A stretch of DNA of 38,822 nt. It comes from a virus. The stretch spans positions 1 through 38,822 of IMG/VR virus record IMGVR_UViG_3300030002_000046; one strand, given 5' to 3'. The notes beneath the pieces were generated by a model. It was not told the DNA's origin. It made no database searches and saw nothing but the letters and a program-made list of their open reading frames with translations. How positions within the stretch are numbered: the first letter of the stretch is position 1; the number at the start of each line of letters is the position of its first letter. Positions 5,450-33,286 of the stretch are shown here, piece after piece. The position numbers and the translations under genes are program-made.

Positions 5450-6002
5450 TGATGAACTCCCTCGCGGTTGACACGGAGTACCCATGGATCTTTCGGTAGT
5501 CCCGGACGGTCAATCCGGTGGCTTTCGCCGCCTGATCCAGAGTCTTTGACTGTGCGGCACCCCACGTTCGTGAACAGGTCAGGCACTTTCTTCCCGGTCC
5601 AGCCGTGAGGTTCCCCTCAACCAGCGGGTGCCCAGCCGGGCAATGCGTCCTGCGCGACTGACCATTACGAGAGCAGTTACTTGCCCGGGTAGTCACTTCT
5701 AGATGCCCCGGGTAGGCGCACGCCCGGTTCTGACATCCGAACTCAGGGTTGTCATGGTCCAGCACCAGCCCGGCAGGGATCTCTCCCCGCAGGGCCAGCC
5801 ACACCACACGGTGCACACGCACGATCATGGTTTTCCCAGCAGTCAATGCTTTCGGCAGTGCAGCGGTCCCGTACCCGTAGCTGTCCTTGGCCCCCTCCCA
5901 CTCCCAGCACACTTCTCCCGGGTACCCGGACAGCCGGGGGATGATCCGGGTCTCCCACCCGGCAGCAAGTGCTGTGAGGATCAGCGGGTCACGAGATGAC
6001 AT
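5436..6002 (-). CDS. HNH endonuclease with zinc-binding C-terminal half
   Basis: A 188-aa HNH protein. The core reads VCWEWEGAKDSYGYG, VHRVVWLALRGEIPAG, LVLDHDNPEFGCQNRACAY and PGHLEVTT, with DH and HLE typical of the family. A Cys-rich CPAGHPL ... KCLTCS segment follows and probably binds zinc. The last 45 residues (DQAAKATGLTVRDYRKIHGY) look like a small helix-turn-helix DNA-binding module. The ATG at 6002 has AGGAGG just upstream and overlaps the nuclease gene by 14 bases; its own end overlaps the resolvase start by 14 bases. The same core occurs in the plus-strand HNH gene at 20933, so the two are probably paralogues. Confidence 0.85.
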   Translation of the reverse strand: MSSRDPLILTALAAGWETRIIPRLSGYPGEVCWEWEGAKDSYGYGTAALPKALTAGKTMIVRVHRVVWLALRGEIPAGLVLDHDNPEFGCQNRACAYPGHLEVTTRASNCSRNGQSRRTHCPAGHPLVEGNLTAGPGRKCLTCSRTWGAAQSKTLDQAAKATGLTVRDYRKIHGYSVSTAREFINGGS

Positions 6003-21379: not shown

Positions 21380-21648
21380 TGCCTCAGGTGAGGCGGTGTT
21401 ACATCGTCCACTTCTTCGGGCTTCTGCCGCTTGGCCAGTCTGGCGAACTCCATTGCCATCCCGTCGCGCTGCTTCCGCTCGTCAACTCCTTGCGTCGCGT
21501 ACTCCTCTAGCCACCATTCGATGTAGTTGAAGGCTCGGTCGGCTCGGAGCGCGAGTACATCAAGACCCCGGGCGAGGGAACTTCCGTCGAGCCGACGCCA
21601 GATGAGGGGCTGCCGGACGTACTGACAGAGTTCCCGCCAGTAGGGCGG
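21376..21648 (-). CDS. tail assembly chaperone downstream (-1) frame, gpT-like
   Basis: This frame has no start codon of its own and is -1 relative to the upstream chaperone gene. It opens at 21648 after a TGA at 21651-21649 and stops with TAG at 21376. It encodes about 90 residues including YWRELCQYVRQPLIWRR and ADRAFNYIEWWLEEYATQ, typical of the second tail chaperone of actinophages. The most likely slip is on CCT (21644-21642) to CCC, joining ..SDDRP to YWREL. There is no perfect slippery heptamer at the site, so the exact point is uncertain. The fused protein would assist tape measure folding and tail tube assembly. Confidence 0.72.
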   Translation of the reverse strand, partial: PPYWRELCQYVRQPLIWRRLDGSSLARGLDVLALRADRAFNYIEWWLEEYATQGVDERKQRDGMAMEFARLAKRQKPEEVDDVTPPHLRH

Positions 21649-21989
21649 TCATCCGAGTACACCTCCGCGAGCCAGCCAGCGATGTCGGAGATCTTGGACA
21701 TCGGGACCACGATCTTCGGGTCACGAATCGCGGCCTCGAAGCGCGCGTAACTCTCTTCCAGCAGGGCGCCACGGAAGAAGCCAAGGAGAGCCTCGATGGT
21801 GGCCGACTGGCTGCCATTGCTCTTGGTGCCTGCGGACGCGAGGTCCAGCAGGAGACCGGCGGGGACTTCGGGGCGGCACTGGAAGATCTGGCCAGCGAGC
21901 TTGAACTCGATGACCTCTTCCGTATCTGCAGTGGGGGCGTCCGTACCCGGAAGGTCGAACTCCATGAACCTCTTCATCAGCATCTCCAT
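21507..21989 (-). CDS. tail assembly chaperone, gpG-like (0 frame)
   Basis: The first tail chaperone gene, just before the tape measure in transcription order. The product begins with an acidic beta segment (EEVIEFKLAGQIFQCRPEVPAG), then a helical core (ALLEESYARFEAAIRDPKIVVPM) and a low-complexity Ser/Pro C-terminus as in other gpG proteins. Several ATGs compete: 21989, 21983, 21977 and 21965. GGAG sits six bases before 21977 and AAGAGG three before 21965, so 21977 may be the true start. A TGTCAACC site overlaps the leader directly upstream. Ribosomes shifting -1 near 21643 make the longer fusion ending at 21376. Confidence 0.78.
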   Translation of the reverse strand: MEMLMKRFMEFDLPGTDAPTADTEEVIEFKLAGQIFQCRPEVPAGLLLDLASAGTKSNGSQSATIEALLGFFRGALLEESYARFEAAIRDPKIVVPMSKISDIAGWLAEVYSDDRPTGGNSVSTSGSPSSGVGSTEVPSPGVLMYSRSEPTEPSTTSNGG

Positions 21990-24553: not shown

Positions 24554-26287
24554 TCAGTTGGTGACCACGGTGTTGGCGATGGCCGGGGAGTACATGCCGA
24601 GCGGCTCGACCGGGCTGGTGACCCAGAGAGCCGCGCCGCCGATCTTGGCGATGCCCTCGAAGGACTCCGAGAACTGCATGTAGTCGTTGGCCCGGACGAG
24701 GGTGGAGTCGCGAACGACACCGAGGTCGAGCGAACCGCCGTCAAGGAACAGGAACGCGCCCTCAGCGAAGAGAGCCCACTGCATCGAGTCCGGGAACGCG
24801 GGGAGCGCACCGGCAGCGATGTCACCGAAGAAGCCGCCGCCGTTGACACTCGGCGCTGCGGAGTCCGGGGTGAAGGTGATGTTGATGTTCCACTGGTCGA
24901 AGAAGTTCTGGACATCAGCGTCAGTGATCGCGAGGTCGGTGGCGCGGTTGGGCGACGCCGGGGGCTGCAGGATCATGTCGATCTTCAGCATGTCCACGAT
25001 CCACTCCGGCAGGATTGCGCGGAGCGGGGTGTTCTTGGTGAGGCGGTGACGGTCGCGGTACCAGATGCCAGCGCGGGCGACGGTGATGAGCAGGTCGCGA
25101 ACCGCGCCGTACTTCACACCCTGACCAGCGATTGCCGTGGAGAGCCCCTTCAGCTTGAACAGCAGGGTGGACTCGGCCACGCGAGCGTGCTGCACCAGCG
25201 CCAGAGCGGTGTTGACAGCGACGTTCTCCGGGAAGACCCGCGAGGACTGGACGCCGAACTTCAGCGCCATGGTCACGGCCTCGGTCTCGGCAGTGGCTTC
25301 GACGGGGCAGTCAACCGACGCCACGACCTTCCACGTTGCGTCGTCCTCCGGGTCGTAGGCTGCATCCTTGGCGGTGTCCCAGAAGCCGGTGGCCACTGCG
25401 ATGTCGTTCAGGGTCGGGCTCACGAAGTAGCGGATGCCACCACGATCTGCTTGGAAGCCAGCCAGCGAGTCGCGGACCGGGCGGTCGGTGACACCGAGGC
25501 TGAACAGGTCGTACCGGGTCGTGAGCGGGGCGCAGAAGCCGCCGGAGGCGGTGATGGCCTGCTCACTGATGACGGCCTCGATCTTCTGACGGTTGATGAA
25601 GGGGTCGTTGGCCTTCAGCATCCGGTCGTCGGAGACCGGCGAAGCGATGGACGCCACGACGACCTTCTCGCCGTCGCCACCACGGAGGCGGGACAGGGAG
25701 TCGATGCGCTTCGCGAAGGACTTCGAGAAGTCTTCGAGGTTGGCGAACGGGCTTCCGGCGCTGTAGCCCGGAAGGTCGGCACCAGCAGTGATGGTGTTGA
25801 CCACCGGCTCGGTCACGACGGGTGCACGGTCCTCGGGGACCTTGACGGCGGAACTGGTCACAGGGGTTTCCTCCTCCTCGTTTTCGGGGATCTTGGGGGT
25901 TTCGGCATCGGCGGGCGCCTCAACCATGTTGTCTTCGGTTGCCTCGACCGCAGGAGCTTCCGGCTCCGTCGCGATCTCGACAGTGGGTTCTGCCTCGGTG
26001 TCAACCGCTGCGGTCACTGGCTCGGCGCTGGCTGCCATCATGTCGGCGGCTGCCGGAGCGGCAGCATCCTCGATGGGAGACTCGGCGTCGCCAGCAGGCT
26101 TGCGGCGGTCGATTTCGGTGCGGACCTGATCAAGGGCATCGGCAAGGTCAGCGAGTGCGGCCTCATCGTTGCTCGTGTCGGCGGTGTCGAACGCGGTCAT
26201 AATGCCGGACTCCAGAGTGGCAAGTTCGTCATCGGACAGGTCCGCCAGCCGAGCCAGATCGGCACTGAACGCTGCGAGTGCGTCCAC
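24554..26287 (-). CDS. major capsid protein (HK97-like fold) with N-terminal scaffold-like region
   Basis: A 577-aa protein. Residues 1-170 are acidic and low-complexity (ALADLADALDQVRTEIDRR, then long Ala/Glu/Pro stretches), as in delta-domain scaffolds that are cut off by the maturation protease. The rest is a typical actinophage capsid: DLFSLGVTDRPVRDSLAGF, DRGGIRYFVSPTLNDI, GFWDTAKDAAYDPEDD, and a C-terminal LDLGVVRDSTLVRANDY. GTG 26287 is chosen because AAGGAGG lies five bases upstream; ATG 26323 has no such site. No separate scaffold gene is visible nearby, which supports the fused scaffold. The stop is followed by a 52-base gap before the tail tube gene. Confidence 0.9.
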   Translation of the reverse strand: MDALAAFSADLARLADLSDDELATLESGIMTAFDTADTSNDEAALADLADALDQVRTEIDRRKPAGDAESPIEDAAAPAAADMMAASAEPVTAAVDTEAEPTVEIATEPEAPAVEATEDNMVEAPADAETPKIPENEEEETPVTSSAVKVPEDRAPVVTEPVVNTITAGADLPGYSAGSPFANLEDFSKSFAKRIDSLSRLRGGDGEKVVVASIASPVSDDRMLKANDPFINRQKIEAVISEQAITASGGFCAPLTTRYDLFSLGVTDRPVRDSLAGFQADRGGIRYFVSPTLNDIAVATGFWDTAKDAAYDPEDDATWKVVASVDCPVEATAETEAVTMALKFGVQSSRVFPENVAVNTALALVQHARVAESTLLFKLKGLSTAIAGQGVKYGAVRDLLITVARAGIWYRDRHRLTKNTPLRAILPEWIVDMLKIDMILQPPASPNRATDLAITDADVQNFFDQWNINITFTPDSAAPSVNGGGFFGDIAAGALPAFPDSMQWALFAEGAFLFLDGGSLDLGVVRDSTLVRANDYMQFSESFEGIAKIGGAALWVTSPVEPLGMYSPAIANTVVTN

Positions 26288-26437
26288 GTGTTCCTCCTTG
26301 GGTTTGCTGGGTAGCTGAAACATCCCGGAGGTACTGCGTTGGCGGGCGTAATCACCGCTCTGTCAGGCACTCGTGTGCAGCCTACACAAATCCAGACCGC
26401 GCGAAGGAAAACTGTGGCAGAGAATCAGAGAAGCAGC

Positions 26438-26778: not shown

Positions 26779-27855
26779 CTACAGTCCTGCGTTCATGTCC
26801 ACCTGCGGGGAGACGGAGACATCCGAGATTGGAAGCCACTGGGACGTTCCGTCATCTCCTACCACGTTCACCATCAGGCTGGAGACCGCGCGCACTGTGT
26901 AGTGCTTCGTCGGGTCCGCGTTCCGGTGAACAGCCTCACCCCGTATCGGATTGAAGAACGGCTCAGTGGGGTGGCTGCGGCCCCCGACAGAGAGCGGAGT
27001 GAGGGTCTGACGCTCCAAGAGGTGCGCCGTGCCGTACTGGTTGTACCTCTCGAACCCTACAAGTTTGCTGAGCGCCTCATCCTTCGTTCCGATGAAGGTC
27101 GTTCCGGGGGAGTTGGGTCCCGTGATCTTCCACGTGTCAACCGCTGCCGGTGCCGAGTCAGGCACGCGCGTGGGATCAATCGCATCGGACGGGGCAGCCA
27201 CTTCCCAGCCGGAGGCCGTGTAGTCCTGACGCTTCAGGGTGTGCGCCGCCTTGTACCGGTCGTAGTTCGCGAGGCTCTTCTGTGCCTCCTGCTCGGTACC
27301 GATGAACGTAGACCCGACTGAGTTCGGACCCTCCACACTCCACGCAGTCACGGTGCCACCATCCGGCTTGGACTGATTGAGGGCTTGCTCCAGCCCGGGG
27401 TCCGCCTTCGCTGCGGGGGCAGGAACTTCTCCGGGAGCGAACTTCCGGTCCTTCCCGTCCCAGTAGTTCTCCAGCAGGGAGCCAGCCTTGTCCGGGTTGG
27501 AGTCGTGAGCGAGATTGCCGTCGTTGGCCCACACGGTGCCGTCAGGCATCACCTGACGCACGGTGTAGGTCTTCCCGTCAGCGTCGAACGTGTCTCCCAC
27601 CTTGACGGTGGGGACCTTCGCACCAGCGAAGTCGTCCTTGATCGGGCTCGGCATGTCGAGATGGGCCTTGGACTTCGGAATCGACTTGGCCCGCTTGGAG
27701 ATGTCGGCAGAGGGGATGACCTCGGTCTTGCCCGTGTTGTTGTTCCGGACAGTCATCCCGTCCGGAGTCAGGTCCATGACCTTCCCCCGGTACCGGTTAC
27801 CCGACCCGTCGGAGTGGTCGAAGATGTCAACCGTTGAGTTCTTCTCGATGAACAT
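26779..27855 (-). CDS. capsid-associated protein with tandem repeats; likely frameshift extension of the protease
   Basis: A 358-aa protein if translation starts at ATG 27855. A small beta barrel-like N-terminus (FDHSDGSGNRYRGKVMDL, TVRNNNTGKTEVI) is followed by DTFDADGKTYTVRQVMPDG. Two tandem ~40-residue modules come next: GPNSVGSTFIGTEQEAQKSL and GPNSPGTTFIGTKDEALSKL, each ending in RYxxxxTLKRQ-like sequence. The frame is open upstream to the slippery site at 27921-27915, and residues before the ATG read EWLHPRGIGG, a motif also in the zeta-kinase and protease proteins. Translation as a -1 extension of the protease is therefore likely, perhaps besides independent initiation. Role unknown; capsid decoration or an internal head protein is possible. 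Confidence 0.7.
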   Translation of the reverse strand: MFIEKNSTVDIFDHSDGSGNRYRGKVMDLTPDGMTVRNNNTGKTEVIPSADISKRAKSIPKSKAHLDMPSPIKDDFAGAKVPTVKVGDTFDADGKTYTVRQVMPDGTVWANDGNLAHDSNPDKAGSLLENYWDGKDRKFAPGEVPAPAAKADPGLEQALNQSKPDGGTVTAWSVEGPNSVGSTFIGTEQEAQKSLANYDRYKAAHTLKRQDYTASGWEVAAPSDAIDPTRVPDSAPAAVDTWKITGPNSPGTTFIGTKDEALSKLVGFERYNQYGTAHLLERQTLTPLSVGGRSHPTEPFFNPIRGEAVHRNADPTKHYTVRAVSSLMVNVVGDDGTSQWLPISDVSVSPQVDMNAGL

Positions 27856-27908
27856 GCCACCGATTCCCCGAGGGTGCAGCCATTCCTTCCAGTTGAGGAT
27901 GCCTGCGG

Positions 27909-30900
27909 TCAGGCTTTTGGGCCAGCCCCACCTGCCTGCACCGAGGCCAGCGCCGGAGCGGGGGTGGATGCAGGAGCAGTTTCGGTGGCCTTGGCGAGAT
28001 CTTCGAGGGTCAGGTCGATCATCTTGCCGTCGCTGTCCATCGCAGTGACCGGCGGGATCGCACCCTTCTCGACCGACTTGATCACCAGAGCCTTGGAGCC
28101 GAGGTAGATCGTGTCGAGAATGCCGATGGAGAGCGGGCCGCTGGCCGTGTCGAACATGCTCCCGGTGGAGGGAACAGTCTTCACCTTGGTGGCTTCAGGG
28201 GCAGCACCGGGGGCCGGAGCAGCAGCGATCTCGGGGACGATGGCCGGGGCAGCAGCGGCAAGAGCCGTTCCGTGAACCCGAGCGCGAAGCTCAGCGCGCT
28301 TCTTCTCCTTGATCGCAGCGCGAGCAGCCTCGATCTTCGTGTTGATCTGGGTCACCGGAGTGGCCTCCTCGGTGTCAACCGGGGCGAGAGGCTCGTAGTC
28401 CTCGTCACCCACCGGGATCGCGTTGCCGACGGCAACCTCTTCCCCGTCAGCGGTCAGGGACTTCTTCTTCGGCTTGCAGCCAGCTTCGAGAGAATCGTCC
28501 ATTTCGAGTGCACCGGCAGCCACCAGAGCGGCCTCCATGACCTGCACGCGGTGGGCGAGAGCGGCGTCGGCGGTGGCAGCGAGCTTGGCCTCAGCCAGCG
28601 GGCGGGCACCGGCAGCCACCAGAGCGGTGATCATGCCGGACGCGACCCGGGCGCGCATGATCGGGAAGCCGGGGACGTTGACCTGACACACGGCCACCAG
28701 TTCCAGCGAGCCGTTGATCGGGCGCCAGTCGCCGGACGGGGCCGAGGCGCGCAGGGCGCGAAGCTGCTCGGGAGAGGCGTCGGGGCGGACCGCACCAGCG
28801 GCCCAGATCCCGTAGCGGTCCTCACCGACGTGGATGTCAGCGATGGCCGAGGCGGTGTCGTCGTAGTGCTTGACGGCCTGACCGGCGTCGGCGCTCAGCG
28901 GGGCGTGGCCACCGGCCAGTGTCAACTGTCCGACCGGGATGTGCGCGCCACTGGCGGTGACCAGATCGCCCGTGTGGAAGTAGGCGTACTTGCTGCGCGA
29001 GCGCGGCGCGCGGACGTTGCCCGGCATGCCGATGTGCGCGATGTCGAAGGTCGCGATGTGGCCGCTGACCCTGCCGTCGTCACCAACCCGGATCGGGGTG
29101 GGACCCTCCAGCTTCGGGTCCTCGAACCACTCGTTCGGCGGGGCGACCGGGAACCCACCAGCAAGGAGGGTGTCGAGCATAGTGACCTCGGTGTCCTGCA
29201 CCTCGGTGTAGATGCCGTCCTTCATGGGGGATGCCTTCCTGTCTGCCTCGTTGACCCACAGCCTACTGTCGATAGCTGCCAGCAAGCTCACCTCGATGGC
29301 CGGGAAACCTGCCGAGGCGTTCAGCTTCGAGCCCGTCCAGAGGCCCGTATTCCGCTTGTGCATGAGGTTGCAGTAGCCCTTGGACCTCAGGCCCATGTAC
29401 TTCGTCAGTTGGCGCACGCAGCGCTTCCAGTCGCCCGGGAGGCCCCACTTGATCTTCAAGCCACCCTTGCCACCCGTGCTCCAGTACCGGCGGAGCTTCT
29501 CTGCCCGAGGATCGGGGGAGACGCCGGGGAGCGGGGAGAGCGTCGCAGACGCGGCGGTGAGGGGCGCTGCGGAGGCCACCGTCTTCTGGTGTGCACGCAG
29601 GAGCTTCAGTTCGGCCAGAGCCCGCCTGTTCGCAATCTGTGCGGTCAGGTAGGCGTCCTTCGTCTTCTTGGCGTTGGCCACGTTCTCCGGGGTGGCGTCC
29701 GCTTTGGCCGCAGCAGCAGCAGCCGCCATCGCCTTGGACGCTGCAGTCACCTCACGGGTGGTTGACACGGCCTTGTTCTGGGCGGTGTTCACCTCGTTCT
29801 GGGCTGTGGCCTGACGCTGCTGCTTGGCTTGTGCGGCAGACTGAGCCGCTGACTGCGACGCGCTCTTGCCCTTGCTCTTGCCCTTGCCCTTTGCGGCTTT
29901 GGCCTTCTTCTTGGACGCGAACTCGTGCGGGTGCGTGATACTGCGCTGTTCGTCGGCAGTGGCCTTGCCGGTGACCTTCCGGCCATGCAGCTTCTGCCAC
30001 TTCCGAATCGCAGCCTCAGTCTTCGGGCCATTGATGCCATCGGCGCCGTTCCCGTTCTTGCCGTCGTTCTTGCCGAGGTACCCGGCCTTGATCAGGCTCT
30101 TCTGCACCGCGACGAACTTTCCGCCGTTACTGGAGCCCTTCTCGCCCCGAGGGTGCTTCTCCTCGTCCCAGCCTGAAGTGCTGCTGTGGGTACCGTGGCT
30201 GCCGTCCCGGTTACCGGCCTTCACATCGGCAGCGGAGTTGCCCTGCCAGTTCTTGTTGCTGCGGCTCGCGGTGGCGGCGGTGAGAGCATCGTCGCCCCCG
30301 TCCTCGCCTTCCACCTCGATCTCGTCGTAGTCGTCGCCGTACTCGTAGCCGTCGTCCTCGATGGACGCAGTCACCGGGCCGTCTTCCTCTGGGCCGGTGG
30401 GGTTCGCGGCGTAGAACTCGTCCACCTGACGCAGTACGTCACCGAGCTTGGTCTCGTCCAGTTCCACCAGCAGTGGCGGAGTGACTCCCTGCAGGTCAGC
30501 CAGCAGGGTGTTGTCCTCCTTCCACTCCTCCTTGCCGGTGTAGACCTCCAGAGTTGGTCCCGGGGCTAGGCGAATCACGTTCAGCACGGCCCCGTGGTCT
30601 AGGTCATCCACCACTGCGAAGTTCTTCCACTGGGCGCTTGCCCCAGTGGGATCTGGCTCGATTGCTGCAGCGGCCATTGGTGCAGCCTGTGCATCGTTGC
30701 TCGGGGGCAGCCACGCGAGGGGTTCGCAGAACCGCAGTGCCAAGCTAGCGCCATCGCTGCACTGGGCGTCGTAGAGTGCAGACGCGATCTCGTGGGTGAT
30801 GTCAACCGTGGCCCGGGGAGTCTCATCCGGGATGATCCACGACTTGGTCTCCGGGTCGAAGAGTTCGTAGCCGCCTTCAACCTCACGGAGCAGTTCGTGG

Positions 30901-31109
30901 AGGATGTCCTCGTTCTCATCATCGGGGACACCGAGGTAGTTTCCGGGCTCGATGTCGCTTGGCATCAGGTTAGCCAGCACCGCTTCGGCCCATTCGCTGC
31001 CGTTCTGAGCAAGTGCCAGAAGCTCCCAGCCGTCTACATGCTCAACCCCGGAAGCCTGAAGGCCCCCGGGGAGGGTGTAGCGACGGTCTTGCCCAGCGAA
31101 AACGATCAC
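27909..31109 (-). CDS. capsid maturation protease with long N-terminal fusion
   Basis: A 1066-aa protein. The protease domain covers about residues 680-815: GHIATFDIAHIGMPGNVR, GQLTLAGGHAPL, HYDDTASAIADIHVGEDRYG, ALRASAPSGDWRPINGSLEL and VNVPGFPI, the conserved sequence of actinophage head proteases. Upstream are an acidic region, an HPRG motif, a peptidoglycan-binding-like segment at about 330-385 (AVQKSLIKAGYLG, GINGPKTEAAIRKWQ), Lys/Ala/Gln-rich coiled sequence, and a module with KLRRYWSTGGKGG, IKWGLPGDW and MGLRSKGYCNLMHKR found in other actinophage head proteins. GTG 31109 is eight bases after the 77-aa gene stop. It ends at the slippery heptamer C_CCA_AAA. Confidence 0.85.
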   Translation of the reverse strand: MIVFAGQDRRYTLPGGLQASGVEHVDGWELLALAQNGSEWAEAVLANLMPSDIEPGNYLGVPDDENEDILHELLREVEGGYELFDPETKSWIIPDETPRATVDITHEIASALYDAQCSDGASLALRFCEPLAWLPPSNDAQAAPMAAAAIEPDPTGASAQWKNFAVVDDLDHGAVLNVIRLAPGPTLEVYTGKEEWKEDNTLLADLQGVTPPLLVELDETKLGDVLRQVDEFYAANPTGPEEDGPVTASIEDDGYEYGDDYDEIEVEGEDGGDDALTAATASRSNKNWQGNSAADVKAGNRDGSHGTHSSTSGWDEEKHPRGEKGSSNGGKFVAVQKSLIKAGYLGKNDGKNGNGADGINGPKTEAAIRKWQKLHGRKVTGKATADEQRSITHPHEFASKKKAKAAKGKGKSKGKSASQSAAQSAAQAKQQRQATAQNEVNTAQNKAVSTTREVTAASKAMAAAAAAAKADATPENVANAKKTKDAYLTAQIANRRALAELKLLRAHQKTVASAAPLTAASATLSPLPGVSPDPRAEKLRRYWSTGGKGGLKIKWGLPGDWKRCVRQLTKYMGLRSKGYCNLMHKRNTGLWTGSKLNASAGFPAIEVSLLAAIDSRLWVNEADRKASPMKDGIYTEVQDTEVTMLDTLLAGGFPVAPPNEWFEDPKLEGPTPIRVGDDGRVSGHIATFDIAHIGMPGNVRAPRSRSKYAYFHTGDLVTASGAHIPVGQLTLAGGHAPLSADAGQAVKHYDDTASAIADIHVGEDRYGIWAAGAVRPDASPEQLRALRASAPSGDWRPINGSLELVAVCQVNVPGFPIMRARVASGMITALVAAGARPLAEAKLAATADAALAHRVQVMEAALVAAGALEMDDSLEAGCKPKKKSLTADGEEVAVGNAIPVGDEDYEPLAPVDTEEATPVTQINTKIEAARAAIKEKKRAELRARVHGTALAAAAPAIVPEIAAAPAPGAAPEATKVKTVPSTGSMFDTASGPLSIGILDTIYLGSKALVIKSVEKGAIPPVTAMDSDGKMIDLTLEDLAKATETAPASTPAPALASVQAGGAGPKA
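27915..27921 (-). other. predicted programmed -1 frameshift site, C_CCA_AAA
   Basis: The last codons of the protease frame are GGC CCA AAA GCC TGA. C_CCA_AAA is a textbook X_XXY_YYZ slippery heptamer, three bases before the stop. After a -1 slip, translation continues as AGC CTG ACC GCA and stays open to 26779. A small perfect hairpin, GCCTG-ACCG-CAGGC, starts immediately after the heptamer. Confidence 0.65.
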
Positions 31110-31381: not shown

Positions 31382-31411
31382 AGTATACATCTATGTGTGT
31401 CTGATTGTCTA
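31382..31411 (-). promoter_or_regulatory. near-consensus promoter inside the structural operon
   Basis: On the minus strand TAGACA (31411-31406) and TATACT (31387-31382) are 18 bases apart. ACACATAGA lies at 31398-31390, just upstream of the -10. Predicted transcription start is about 31375, upstream of the 77-aa gene; transcripts could continue into the protease and capsid genes. Confidence 0.65.
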
Positions 31412-33286
31412 TACCGCTACGGGAGCAACAGGGACAACGGGGGCAGTGACAGGATCTCCCGGGTACATCCCGGGGATGATCGAAGGATCTTCGTCTAGGA
31501 CGATCTTCACCCGATTCCCCTCCTTGGTCTTCGTGAACTTGGGGACCCGGCCCGGCCCGGAACCGGAGCCAATCAGCTTCGGGGTGGTGTCGTAGGCGGT
31601 GTTGTCCACGACGTACCAGCGATTGAAGTGCCCCTCGGACTGCATCTTGTTGAAGTTCGCACGGTTGAGGGTGACATCCCCACCGATGTCGGACTCCGCG
31701 AGGATTCCCTCCGGCACGTAGCGACCGCCTTGGTCCATGACCAAGTCTTCCTTGTCCATCACCCCGGTGCGCAGCCGGTTGACACCACCGAGGTGGCGCT
31801 GGTTCTGGGACGTGGCCGACATGGCCAGCGGCACCTCCACGAACACGGCATCAAGGTCATACCCGTAGGCCTTCAGGTCAGCGGAAGTACCTTCGGCGCC
31901 GGTCACTCCTGTGCGCTTCTTCGGGTGACCGCCCATGGTGATGTCCGCGATCATGTTGTAGCCGCTCTTCATCACCTTTCCGGTGAAGTCGTGAGCGATG
32001 GCAGAGGACAACTCGTGCATCGGCCCGGCCTCCTCCATCGGAGACAGGCCCTTGATCTCGGGGTAGACGCCGTCGCGGACCATGAGCCCCTTGACCACGT
32101 CCGGGTTGGACACCGCCCACTTGTCCATGTCGAGCCCGTAGGCCGCAACCATGGAAGACTTTCCCGCTCCCGGGAGCCCGCCCATCATCAGTCCGTGGTG
32201 CTCCTTGGGGACCCCACGACGATCAAGATCAGCCAGCATCTCGGCCACAGTGGCGTCGATGTACGCCTGCGTCGCAGGGGTCCACCGCCGCTGCCCGGGA
32301 TGCTCTGGATCGTCCTCCATCAGTGCCTGATCCGAGTTCAGTCCCGGACCACCATCCGCTACGGAGATACCGGCTTCCCGCAGAGTCTGGGACACGAACT
32401 CCTGATGCCGGGTGAACTCCGGCGCCTGACCCTCCCGGATCTTGGTGAACATGTCCTCAACCGTCGGGGACTGCGAGAAGTCGATCTTCTCGAACTTCAG
32501 GTTCTCCCGGATCACGTCGCCGCGTGTGTTCAGTGAGGCGGAATCGTCCACCGTCGCGTTGAACTCCTGCGTCCTGCGGACCCACGCCTGCGCCTCGCTG
32601 GAAGTATGCCACTCTGCCGCAGCCGCTGACATCGGCTGCTCGTTCGGCGTACGCACGCGGGTGAGTGCGGAGTGACCGGACGAGGACTCAGGAACGTCTA
32701 GGTGTGCAATAGCCTCCCCAGCAACAGAGATCTTGTCGTGGATGTCGTTGGTCGCGATGATCGAGGGGAACCCATTGGCCGGGTCCGGAGGAATCGACTT
32801 GCCGTTTTCATCCCGGTAGGAGACACGAGCGCCGTCGGGGGCGAGGATGCGGATCTGTGCCCGGCGCTTGGGAGCGTCCGGGGAATCCAGCGGATCGTCC
32901 GGGTTGGCGAAGATGTTGACGAACGAGAACTTCTCGATGAAGCGCCCGTCCTTACCACGAGGGTGTGCCCACTCCACGAAGCGCGTCGCGGCCACGATGG
33001 ACGGGTGCTGCAGCGTGCCGTCCCGGCGAGCCAGCGCGATGATCTCGCGGAGGTGCTCACCACGAACTGGTCGCCCGTTGATCGCAGCGGTGATCACCTT
33101 CAGGGACGCTTGCACCGAATCCGGAAGGCACCACGATTCCGGGAGAATCTCGGACATCCCCAGCGAGTGCGCCTTCTTCGTGACGTACCACCGGGAATGC
33201 GGATACAGATCCCCGAACTCGACAGCTTCCGGGAGATCCGCAGCCGAGATGATGGGAGGGATCATGTCGATGCGCAACCGATTCAC
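31409..33286 (-). CDS. zeta toxin-like kinase in a head-gene protein
   Basis: A 625-aa protein. A zeta/AAA-type P-loop GGLPGAGKSS lies near residue 369, followed by VSNPDVVK (nucleotide or substrate site), MHELSSAIAHDF and YNMIADITMGG, matching zeta kinase motifs. Zeta toxins phosphorylate UDP-N-acetylglucosamine and related substrates, blocking wall synthesis. The N-terminus carries a short module repeated at the end of the upstream protein, then WAHPRGKDGRFIE near residue 109. The C-terminal tail is Pro/Val-rich. GTG 33286 overlaps the preceding stop as GTGA. Multi-domain phage proteins of this kind, encoded with head genes, can be carried in the virion and injected; that is inference here. 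Confidence 0.78.
   Translation of the reverse strand: MNRLRIDMIPPIISAADLPEAVEFGDLYPHSRWYVTKKAHSLGMSEILPESWCLPDSVQASLKVITAAINGRPVRGEHLREIIALARRDGTLQHPSIVAATRFVEWAHPRGKDGRFIEKFSFVNIFANPDDPLDSPDAPKRRAQIRILAPDGARVSYRDENGKSIPPDPANGFPSIIATNDIHDKISVAGEAIAHLDVPESSSGHSALTRVRTPNEQPMSAAAAEWHTSSEAQAWVRRTQEFNATVDDSASLNTRGDVIRENLKFEKIDFSQSPTVEDMFTKIREGQAPEFTRHQEFVSQTLREAGISVADGGPGLNSDQALMEDDPEHPGQRRWTPATQAYIDATVAEMLADLDRRGVPKEHHGLMMGGLPGAGKSSMVAAYGLDMDKWAVSNPDVVKGLMVRDGVYPEIKGLSPMEEAGPMHELSSAIAHDFTGKVMKSGYNMIADITMGGHPKKRTGVTGAEGTSADLKAYGYDLDAVFVEVPLAMSATSQNQRHLGGVNRLRTGVMDKEDLVMDQGGRYVPEGILAESDIGGDVTLNRANFNKMQSEGHFNRWYVVDNTAYDTTPKLIGSGSGPGRVPKFTKTKEGNRVKIVLDEDPSIIPGMYPGDPVTAPVVPVAPVAV

Follow-up and report, generated by a model that had tools for sequence, protein, structure and literature searches.

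Recoding in Phage Genes

The phage genes in which recoding has been described in a review include those for tail chaperones, for the major proteins of the capsid and of the tail, and for Ig-like additions (PMC5009743). MuF-like gene pairs have also been flagged by PRFect in SEA-PHAGES data (PMC10885494). We found no report of a frameshift at a head protease in the open-access literature that was searched, and nothing relevant there on the phages Sixama, Forza or GodonK; since the search was limited to open-access papers, this absence is only weak evidence. The earlier note on this DNA, which had proposed such a frameshift without database searches, likewise knew of no established case.

The locus considered here lies in a stretch of viral DNA of 38,822 nt (positions 1–38,822 of the IMG/VR virus record IMGVR_UViG_3300030002_000046), which is referred to below as the window. 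Our reading is that the end of its head maturation protease gene is a programmed −1 frameshift site that adds a C-terminal module to a fraction of the protease. We consider this likely, with a probability of roughly 0.86. The slippery heptamer, the open −1 frame without a start codon, the homology of this frame to known coding sequence and the conservation of the arrangement, including in cultured phages, are shown; the slippage in vivo is inferred, without any fusion peptide or reporter data.

The Protease Gene and Its Proposed Slip Site

The protease gene occupies positions 27909–31109 on the minus strand, and its 0-frame product (P0001) has 1066 residues. Residues 650–880 match PHROG families of head maturation proteases and portal-annotated head proteins with E values down to 1e-60, the best curated head maturation protease families for the core being phrog_859 (E 1e-60) and phrog_18402 (E 2e-53); the same core is matched by 790 phage records. 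The gene is directly upstream of the major capsid protein gene (24554–26323, minus strand; phrog_777 major head protein, E 3e-70), which is the next gene of known family. On the basis of these family matches and its place before the capsid gene, P0001 is identified as the head maturation protease of an actinophage, its catalytic activity being inferred. Two side observations concern this protein. A peptidoglycan-binding domain (Pfam PF01471, E 1e-9) sits inside the protease at residues 333–385 (29955–30113), and in Rofo, Fosterous, Galadriel, Ashertheman and Kithara the genes that match the protease core are labelled “RNA ligase”, which could reflect multi-domain proteins or misannotation.

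Read directly, P0001 ends ...GGAGPKA*, with the codons GGC CCA AAA GCC TGA. The heptamer C_CCA_AAA (27915–27921, minus strand) is in the phase required for tandem −1 slippage and lies four codons from the end of the gene; the TGA stop (27909–27911, minus strand) lies three codons beyond the CCA of this heptamer. From stop to stop (about 28194 to 26782), the −1 frame comprises 471 open codons, 376 of them beyond the 0-frame stop, and its earliest ATG, GTG or TTG is at 27855. Thus, two criteria of programmed −1 frameshifting, an X_XXY_YYZ heptamer near the end of the first reading frame and a start-less −1 coding frame, are met. It is worth adding that C_CC.A_AA.A belongs to the V_VV.A_AA.R class of heptamers, which is efficient in E. 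coli (PMC4066793).

As for stimulators, an SD-like AGGTGG (27928–27933, minus strand) lies 6 nt upstream of the heptamer, and it is identical at an equal distance in Forza and reads GGGTGG in Sixama; that it stimulates slippage is a possibility that we infer rather than show. The RNA downstream of the window's heptamer is ordinary, and comparison with local windows revealed no unusual structure in it. A GCCTG-ACCG-CAGGC hairpin directly after the heptamer was considered as a stimulator and rejected for being too close.

In the proposed mechanism, most ribosomes would read GGC CCA AAA GCC and terminate at TGA, giving the 1066-residue protease. Some would move back by one base on C_CCA_AAA and continue with CCC AAA AGC CTG..., and the product of these would be a fusion of about 1443 residues consisting of the protease, an HPRG and SH3/Tudor-like module and a repeat region.

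The Start-less Extension

The −1-frame extension (P0006; 26779–27921, minus strand) has 380 residues in translation when counted from the slip, that is, 378 residues after the slipped P-K. Its first part, PKSLTAGILNWKEWLHPRGIGG (27856–27921, minus strand), has no ATG, GTG or TTG and is homologous from residue 1 to a module of the zeta-kinase protein P0002, which is encoded at 31409–33286 on the minus strand, matches Pfam Zeta_toxin above cut-off, and carries the paralogous HPRG module at its residues 103–199. Thus, EWLHPRGIGGMFIEK of the extension (27885–27841) aligns with EWAHPRGKDGRFIEK of P0002. Over the 100-residue module, P0006 and P0002 are 35–41% identical, and the conserved positions of the alignment run back to the first residue of the slipped frame. 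When P0006 residues 1–100 are aligned with the zeta kinase of the window and its counterparts in six related contigs (L014, L015, L017, L096, L097 and L098), P1, A6, W14, the HPRG motif, G22 and F24 are invariant. Starting translation at ATG 27855 would drop residues 1–22. Because the conserved positions of the module reach back to residue 1, at the slip codon, the start-less stretch of the window is very likely coding.

The HPRG and SH3/Tudor-like module takes up approximately residues 1–88 of P0006 (27658–27921, minus strand), as judged by the alignment, AlphaFold2 (AF2) modelling and structure matches. With the module alignment as input, AF2 predicts a helix (residues 4–15), the HPRG loop and a small beta barrel, with a pLDDT of 75–94 over residues 11–80. 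The PDB matches of this predicted module are Tudor/SH3-like, and only the best of them has an E value below 0.001. Further downstream, two related segments were placed by eye and with a low-confidence model at about 27354–27217 and 27138–27007 on the minus strand; the single-sequence AF2 model of P0006 was poor and served only for these rough repeat borders. Direct searches of viral contigs and phages with P0006 found no relatives. As a separate observation, another sequence (L100, 5140–12057) has a giant open frame whose several predicted enzyme-like domains, one of them kinase-like, are separated by recurring EWLHPRGRGGEWI-type motifs. In that frame the HPRG motif looks like a tag of module borders, a suggestion that we offer as no more than possible.

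The observations of the earlier note on the window itself thus held: the C_CCA_AAA heptamer at the protease end is in shift phase (27921–27915), the −1 frame remains open for more than 1.1 kb (to 26779), the segment before ATG 27855 does resemble the zeta-kinase protein, with homology back to the slip site, and about 378 residues would be appended.

Conservation in Cultured Phages

The same heptamer is found 13 nt before the stop of the protease gene in four Gordonia phages: the gene ends ...GCT AAC CCA AAA GAC CGC TAA in Forza, Boopy and Mareelih, and ...GGT TCC CCA AAA GAC CAC TAA in Sixama. In BlueNGold, where the extension was compared and the slip region was not read, an identical 128-residue extension continues from the protease gene. 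The −1 frame of Forza opens exactly at the heptamer and includes PKRPLTAGIRKVKSAAGAERYDQPIG... and KVKSAAGAERYDQPIG...; it runs 123 codons past the stop, and that of Sixama 105, with the first start codons only at +272 and +170 nt, respectively. The two proteases are 85% identical, and the start-less parts of the two extensions are 74% identical, with differences at 10, 8 and 26 first, second and third codon positions, a dN of 0.195 and a dS of 0.969. The start-less extension of these phages is under purifying selection, with a dN/dS of about 0.2. In the deposited annotations the extension is not joined to the protease; either only its tail is covered, or ORFs of another frame are laid over it.

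The DNA flanking the slip site matches the window in both Forza and Sixama, and for the window and Forza it can be aligned as GGCAGGTGGnGCTnnCCCAAAAG..CTnACCGCAGG. In these two, the 0 frame reads AGGA(G/N)PK and the −1 frame PK..LTAG, and the cargo behind PK..LTAG differs, being the HPRG module in the window and a short RY.QPIG-type module in Forza. A protein of the RY.QPIG type is encoded in GMA2 by a separate gene with its own start.

Beyond the Forza group and Sixama, 21 species of named phages with this protease were surveyed, and neither the heptamer nor the −1 extension was present in them, barring the ambiguous Clown; both are missing from GodonK and Phendrix. In Gordonia phage Clown (L132, near 3544), the gene ends GGG AAA ATG A, with G_GGA_AAA at −7 and the overlapping ATG of the next gene, and the −1 frame has 184 codons. 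The protease and a QPRDxxGxF C-module are within one ORF in Cece, Big4 and Pumpernickel, and an ATG splits the C-module from the protease in DSL-LC01. The in-frame fusions indicate that a protease–module fusion, as the frameshift would make, is a natural product in relatives. A kinase gene (gp57) is placed after the capsid gene in Phrappuccino and Settecandela.

Metagenomic Relatives

A different heptamer, G_GGA_AAC, is found at protease ends in two pairs of metagenomic contigs, each pair representing two assemblies. In L017/L018 the gene ends CTG GGA AAC GTC TGA, and the heptamer is at the same −10 position as in the window. The −1 frame continues without a stop for 870 codons and enters a protein in which an HPRD motif and a zeta-kinase-like domain were recognized by eye. 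A 60-nt structure 5–9 nt past the heptamer of L017 has a folding energy of −50.9 kcal/mol, which ranks it among the lowest 0.1% of windows in the 3 kb to each side. This −1 frame is not start-less, because a GTG lies 20 nt after the stop. In L096/L112 the heptamer is at −19 and no start codon follows for 233 nt; over 69 codons the protein encoded in this stretch of L096 is 65% identical to its counterpart in L098 (dN 0.29, dS 0.57). The downstream RNA structure of L096 is moderate, and a strong hairpin is present only in L017.

No heptamer is present at the protease end of the close relatives L097 and L098; L098 has an overlapping TGATG start, and L097, like L019, a GTG start in another frame. 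In the other relatives the C-module is in frame with the protease, carried by a separate, independently started gene (as in the downstream ORF of L087), or absent. The protease frameshift is therefore not universal within the family. In genome contigs, the head-protease core had no match, and the zeta module had just weak matches, to its kinase part, in MAG contigs of Clostridiales.

Comparison with relatives was also the means by which the earlier note thought its proposal could be refuted, by a missing heptamer or a stop in the −1 frame before 27855, together with an absence of spanning peptides. A heptamer has been retained at the corresponding position by several relatives, as C_CCA_AAA in Forza, Boopy, Mareelih and Sixama and as G_GGA_AAC in L017/L018 and L096/L112, and their −1 frames pass through conserved coding sequence without a stop; these frames are start-less in Forza, Sixama and L096, and not in L017. 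The proposal of a frameshift onto a fraction of the protease is supported, the word “fraction” remaining an inference.

Could the Heptamers Be Due to Chance?

In-frame heptamers of the form X_XXY_YYZ with Y = A or T are rare in such DNA, with five in the 11,046 codons of the window (about 0.0004 per codon) and 2–5 per 10,000 codons across the GC-rich genes compared. Their constituent codons are rare as well: of the 481 Lys codons of the window, 16 are AAA, and L114 and L096 seldom use GGA. When synonymous codons were resampled with the protein held fixed, a heptamer appeared in the last 15 codons of the protease gene with a probability of 3.4% in the window, 3.0% in L017 and 3.3% in L096. These probabilities should not simply be multiplied, because the lineages are related. 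Among 227 GC-rich ORF ends at which the −1 frame runs on, seven heptamers were in shift phase and none in either of the two control phases. One of the seven (GGGAAAA in L016) proved to be an artefact of an out-of-frame ORF lying over a long coding frame, which leaves six. A protease tree that predates the discovery of the Gordonia cases requires two or more changes of the trait, and a single origin is not excluded.

A Possible Second −1 Site in the Head Region

The window encodes another head-region protein, P0003 (33283–34059, minus strand), upstream of the zeta kinase. Its homologues in L096, L097 and L098 end with a C_CCT_TTC heptamer, at −34, −40 and −34, respectively, and the HPRG/zeta-kinase protein follows in the −1 frame; a survey of junctions placed this second site at 5827–5863 in both L096 and L098 and at 5836–5878 in L097. 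C_CC.U_UU.C is also of an efficient class in E. coli, H_HH.U_UU.Y (PMC4066793). After the stop of the P0003-like gene, the conserved N-terminus lacks a start codon in L097 and L098 (GTA versus GTG in L096). For the P0003-like gene, resampling of synonymous codons gave chance probabilities of 1.0% in L096, 1.5% in L097 and 1.9% in L098. In L014 and L015 the P0003-like part and the HPRG module form a single ORF. The second site is not used in the window, where a GTGA overlap (33283–33286) joins the genes for P0003 and the zeta kinase. An RWYV-type domain is found at the end of P0003 and again at the start of P0002, and this repeat has the look of a duplication upon the splitting of a fused gene, although we can put it no higher than a possibility.

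A bolder reading can be built on the two sites, namely that a clade of large actinophages repeatedly uses programmed −1 frameshifting in the head-assembly operon, both at the protease gene and at the P0003-like gene that precedes the zeta kinase, so that a set fraction of head proteins receives exchangeable modules. In this reading, a shift cassette, AGGTGG-N6-CCCAAAAG-N(2-5)-CTnACCGCAGG, has been kept between the window and the Gordonia phages while the module behind it was swapped. We lean towards this view, though by a narrow margin.

Alternative Explanations

Several points count against a frameshift in the window: the RNA is ordinary, a heptamer would arise by chance with a probability of 3.4% when the window is taken alone, and L097, L098, GodonK and Phendrix have none at the protease end. 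The rival that survives best, which we nevertheless consider unlikely, holds that there is no frameshift and that P0006 is a separate protein made from a non-standard start, such as the CTG at 27912, which overlaps the stop as CTGA and would allow translational coupling. In its favour, CTGA is present in the window, L017 and L096, and coupling through overlapping starts and stops occurs at other junctions, for example the TGATG of L098. It is weakened by Forza and Sixama, however, because they read CTAA there (codon CTA) and offer no ATG, GTG or TTG for 272 and 170 nt. Moreover, the closest SD-like sequence, AGGTG, is 16 nt from the CTG, and the rare in-phase heptamers are left unexplained.

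An indel from assembly or sequencing, with the real protease and P0006 forming one in-frame gene, is a weaker rival and very unlikely. The window is a single metagenomic contig, the search found no second assembly of this phage, and related phages do carry the protease and the module in one ORF. Against this, the homopolymer run at the site is only 3 C and 4 A, and the arrangement is also found in the isolate genomes of Forza, Boopy, Mareelih and Sixama and in the paired assemblies L017/L018 and L096/L112. Slightly less probable still is decay, in which P0006 would start at ATG 27855, which is present with a weak SD, and the HPRG stretch upstream would be an untranslated relic; in favour of this, the module is clearly paralogous to that of the zeta kinase. 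That stretch, however, retains P, A, W and HPRG, which are invariant in the alignment, the late start would delete the predicted helix and the HPRG motif, and the equivalent position in Forza and Sixama has a dN/dS of about 0.2.

What the Fusion Might Do

Returning to the frameshift, its most likely use, as we infer it, would be to bring modules, tethered to the protease and limited in number, into the prohead, where they would serve as a scaffold anchor or as cargo that enters together with the protease; the choice between anchor and cargo is undecided. The slippage in vivo, its rate, its stimulation by AGGTGG and the use of the fusion are all inferences at this point. If they are true, the ratio of bare to module-bearing protease would be set by ribosome slippage, which would give direct control over the number of tethered domains that enter the prohead. 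There is also a more practical consequence: in sequenced, culturable Gordonia phages, a conserved extension reaching 105–123 codons past the stop has been missed by the present annotations.

Comparison with Known Systems

The mechanism, −1 frameshifting, is well known; its use at a head protease is new to us, with the reservation that no fusion peptide has been shown. The G/GT tail chaperones of the lambda type are alike in that a single start yields both a short and a long product, in a set ratio, through a −1 shift close to where the first gene ends (PMC5009743). They differ in that their genes precede the tape measure gene, whereas the protease gene is next to the capsid gene; the slip site lies immediately before the major capsid gene, not in the interval from the major tail protein gene to the tape measure gene. 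A separate candidate G/T pair is present in the window at 21989–21376, its first ORF terminating at 21507 and its −1 frame continuing to 21376; the pair is similar in L112, and it has no X_XXY_YYZ heptamer of the A/T type.

The frameshifted major capsid proteins of T7/T3 (gene 10), Lactobacillus phage A2 and the Listeria phages A118, A500 and PSA also place a C-terminal domain on a minority of a head protein (PMC5009743). In those phages the recoded gene is that of the capsid protein, whereas here it is that of the maturation protease, and the added part is an HPRG/SH3-like module; the recoded gene of the window is not the major capsid gene, which was identified separately (26323–24554, phrog_777). 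The transposases of the IS3 and IS1 families share the use of X_XXY_YYZ heptamers, including G_GG.A_AA.C, and of structural stimulators (PMC4066793), but their genes and function are unrelated to those of the window. The MuF-fused or polyvalent effector proteins resemble the proposed product: in them, head proteins are fused to zeta-toxin-like kinases or other modules, which are thought to be packaged and injected (PMC5512222). Theirs is an in-frame fusion, whereas the module of the window would be attached by recoding.
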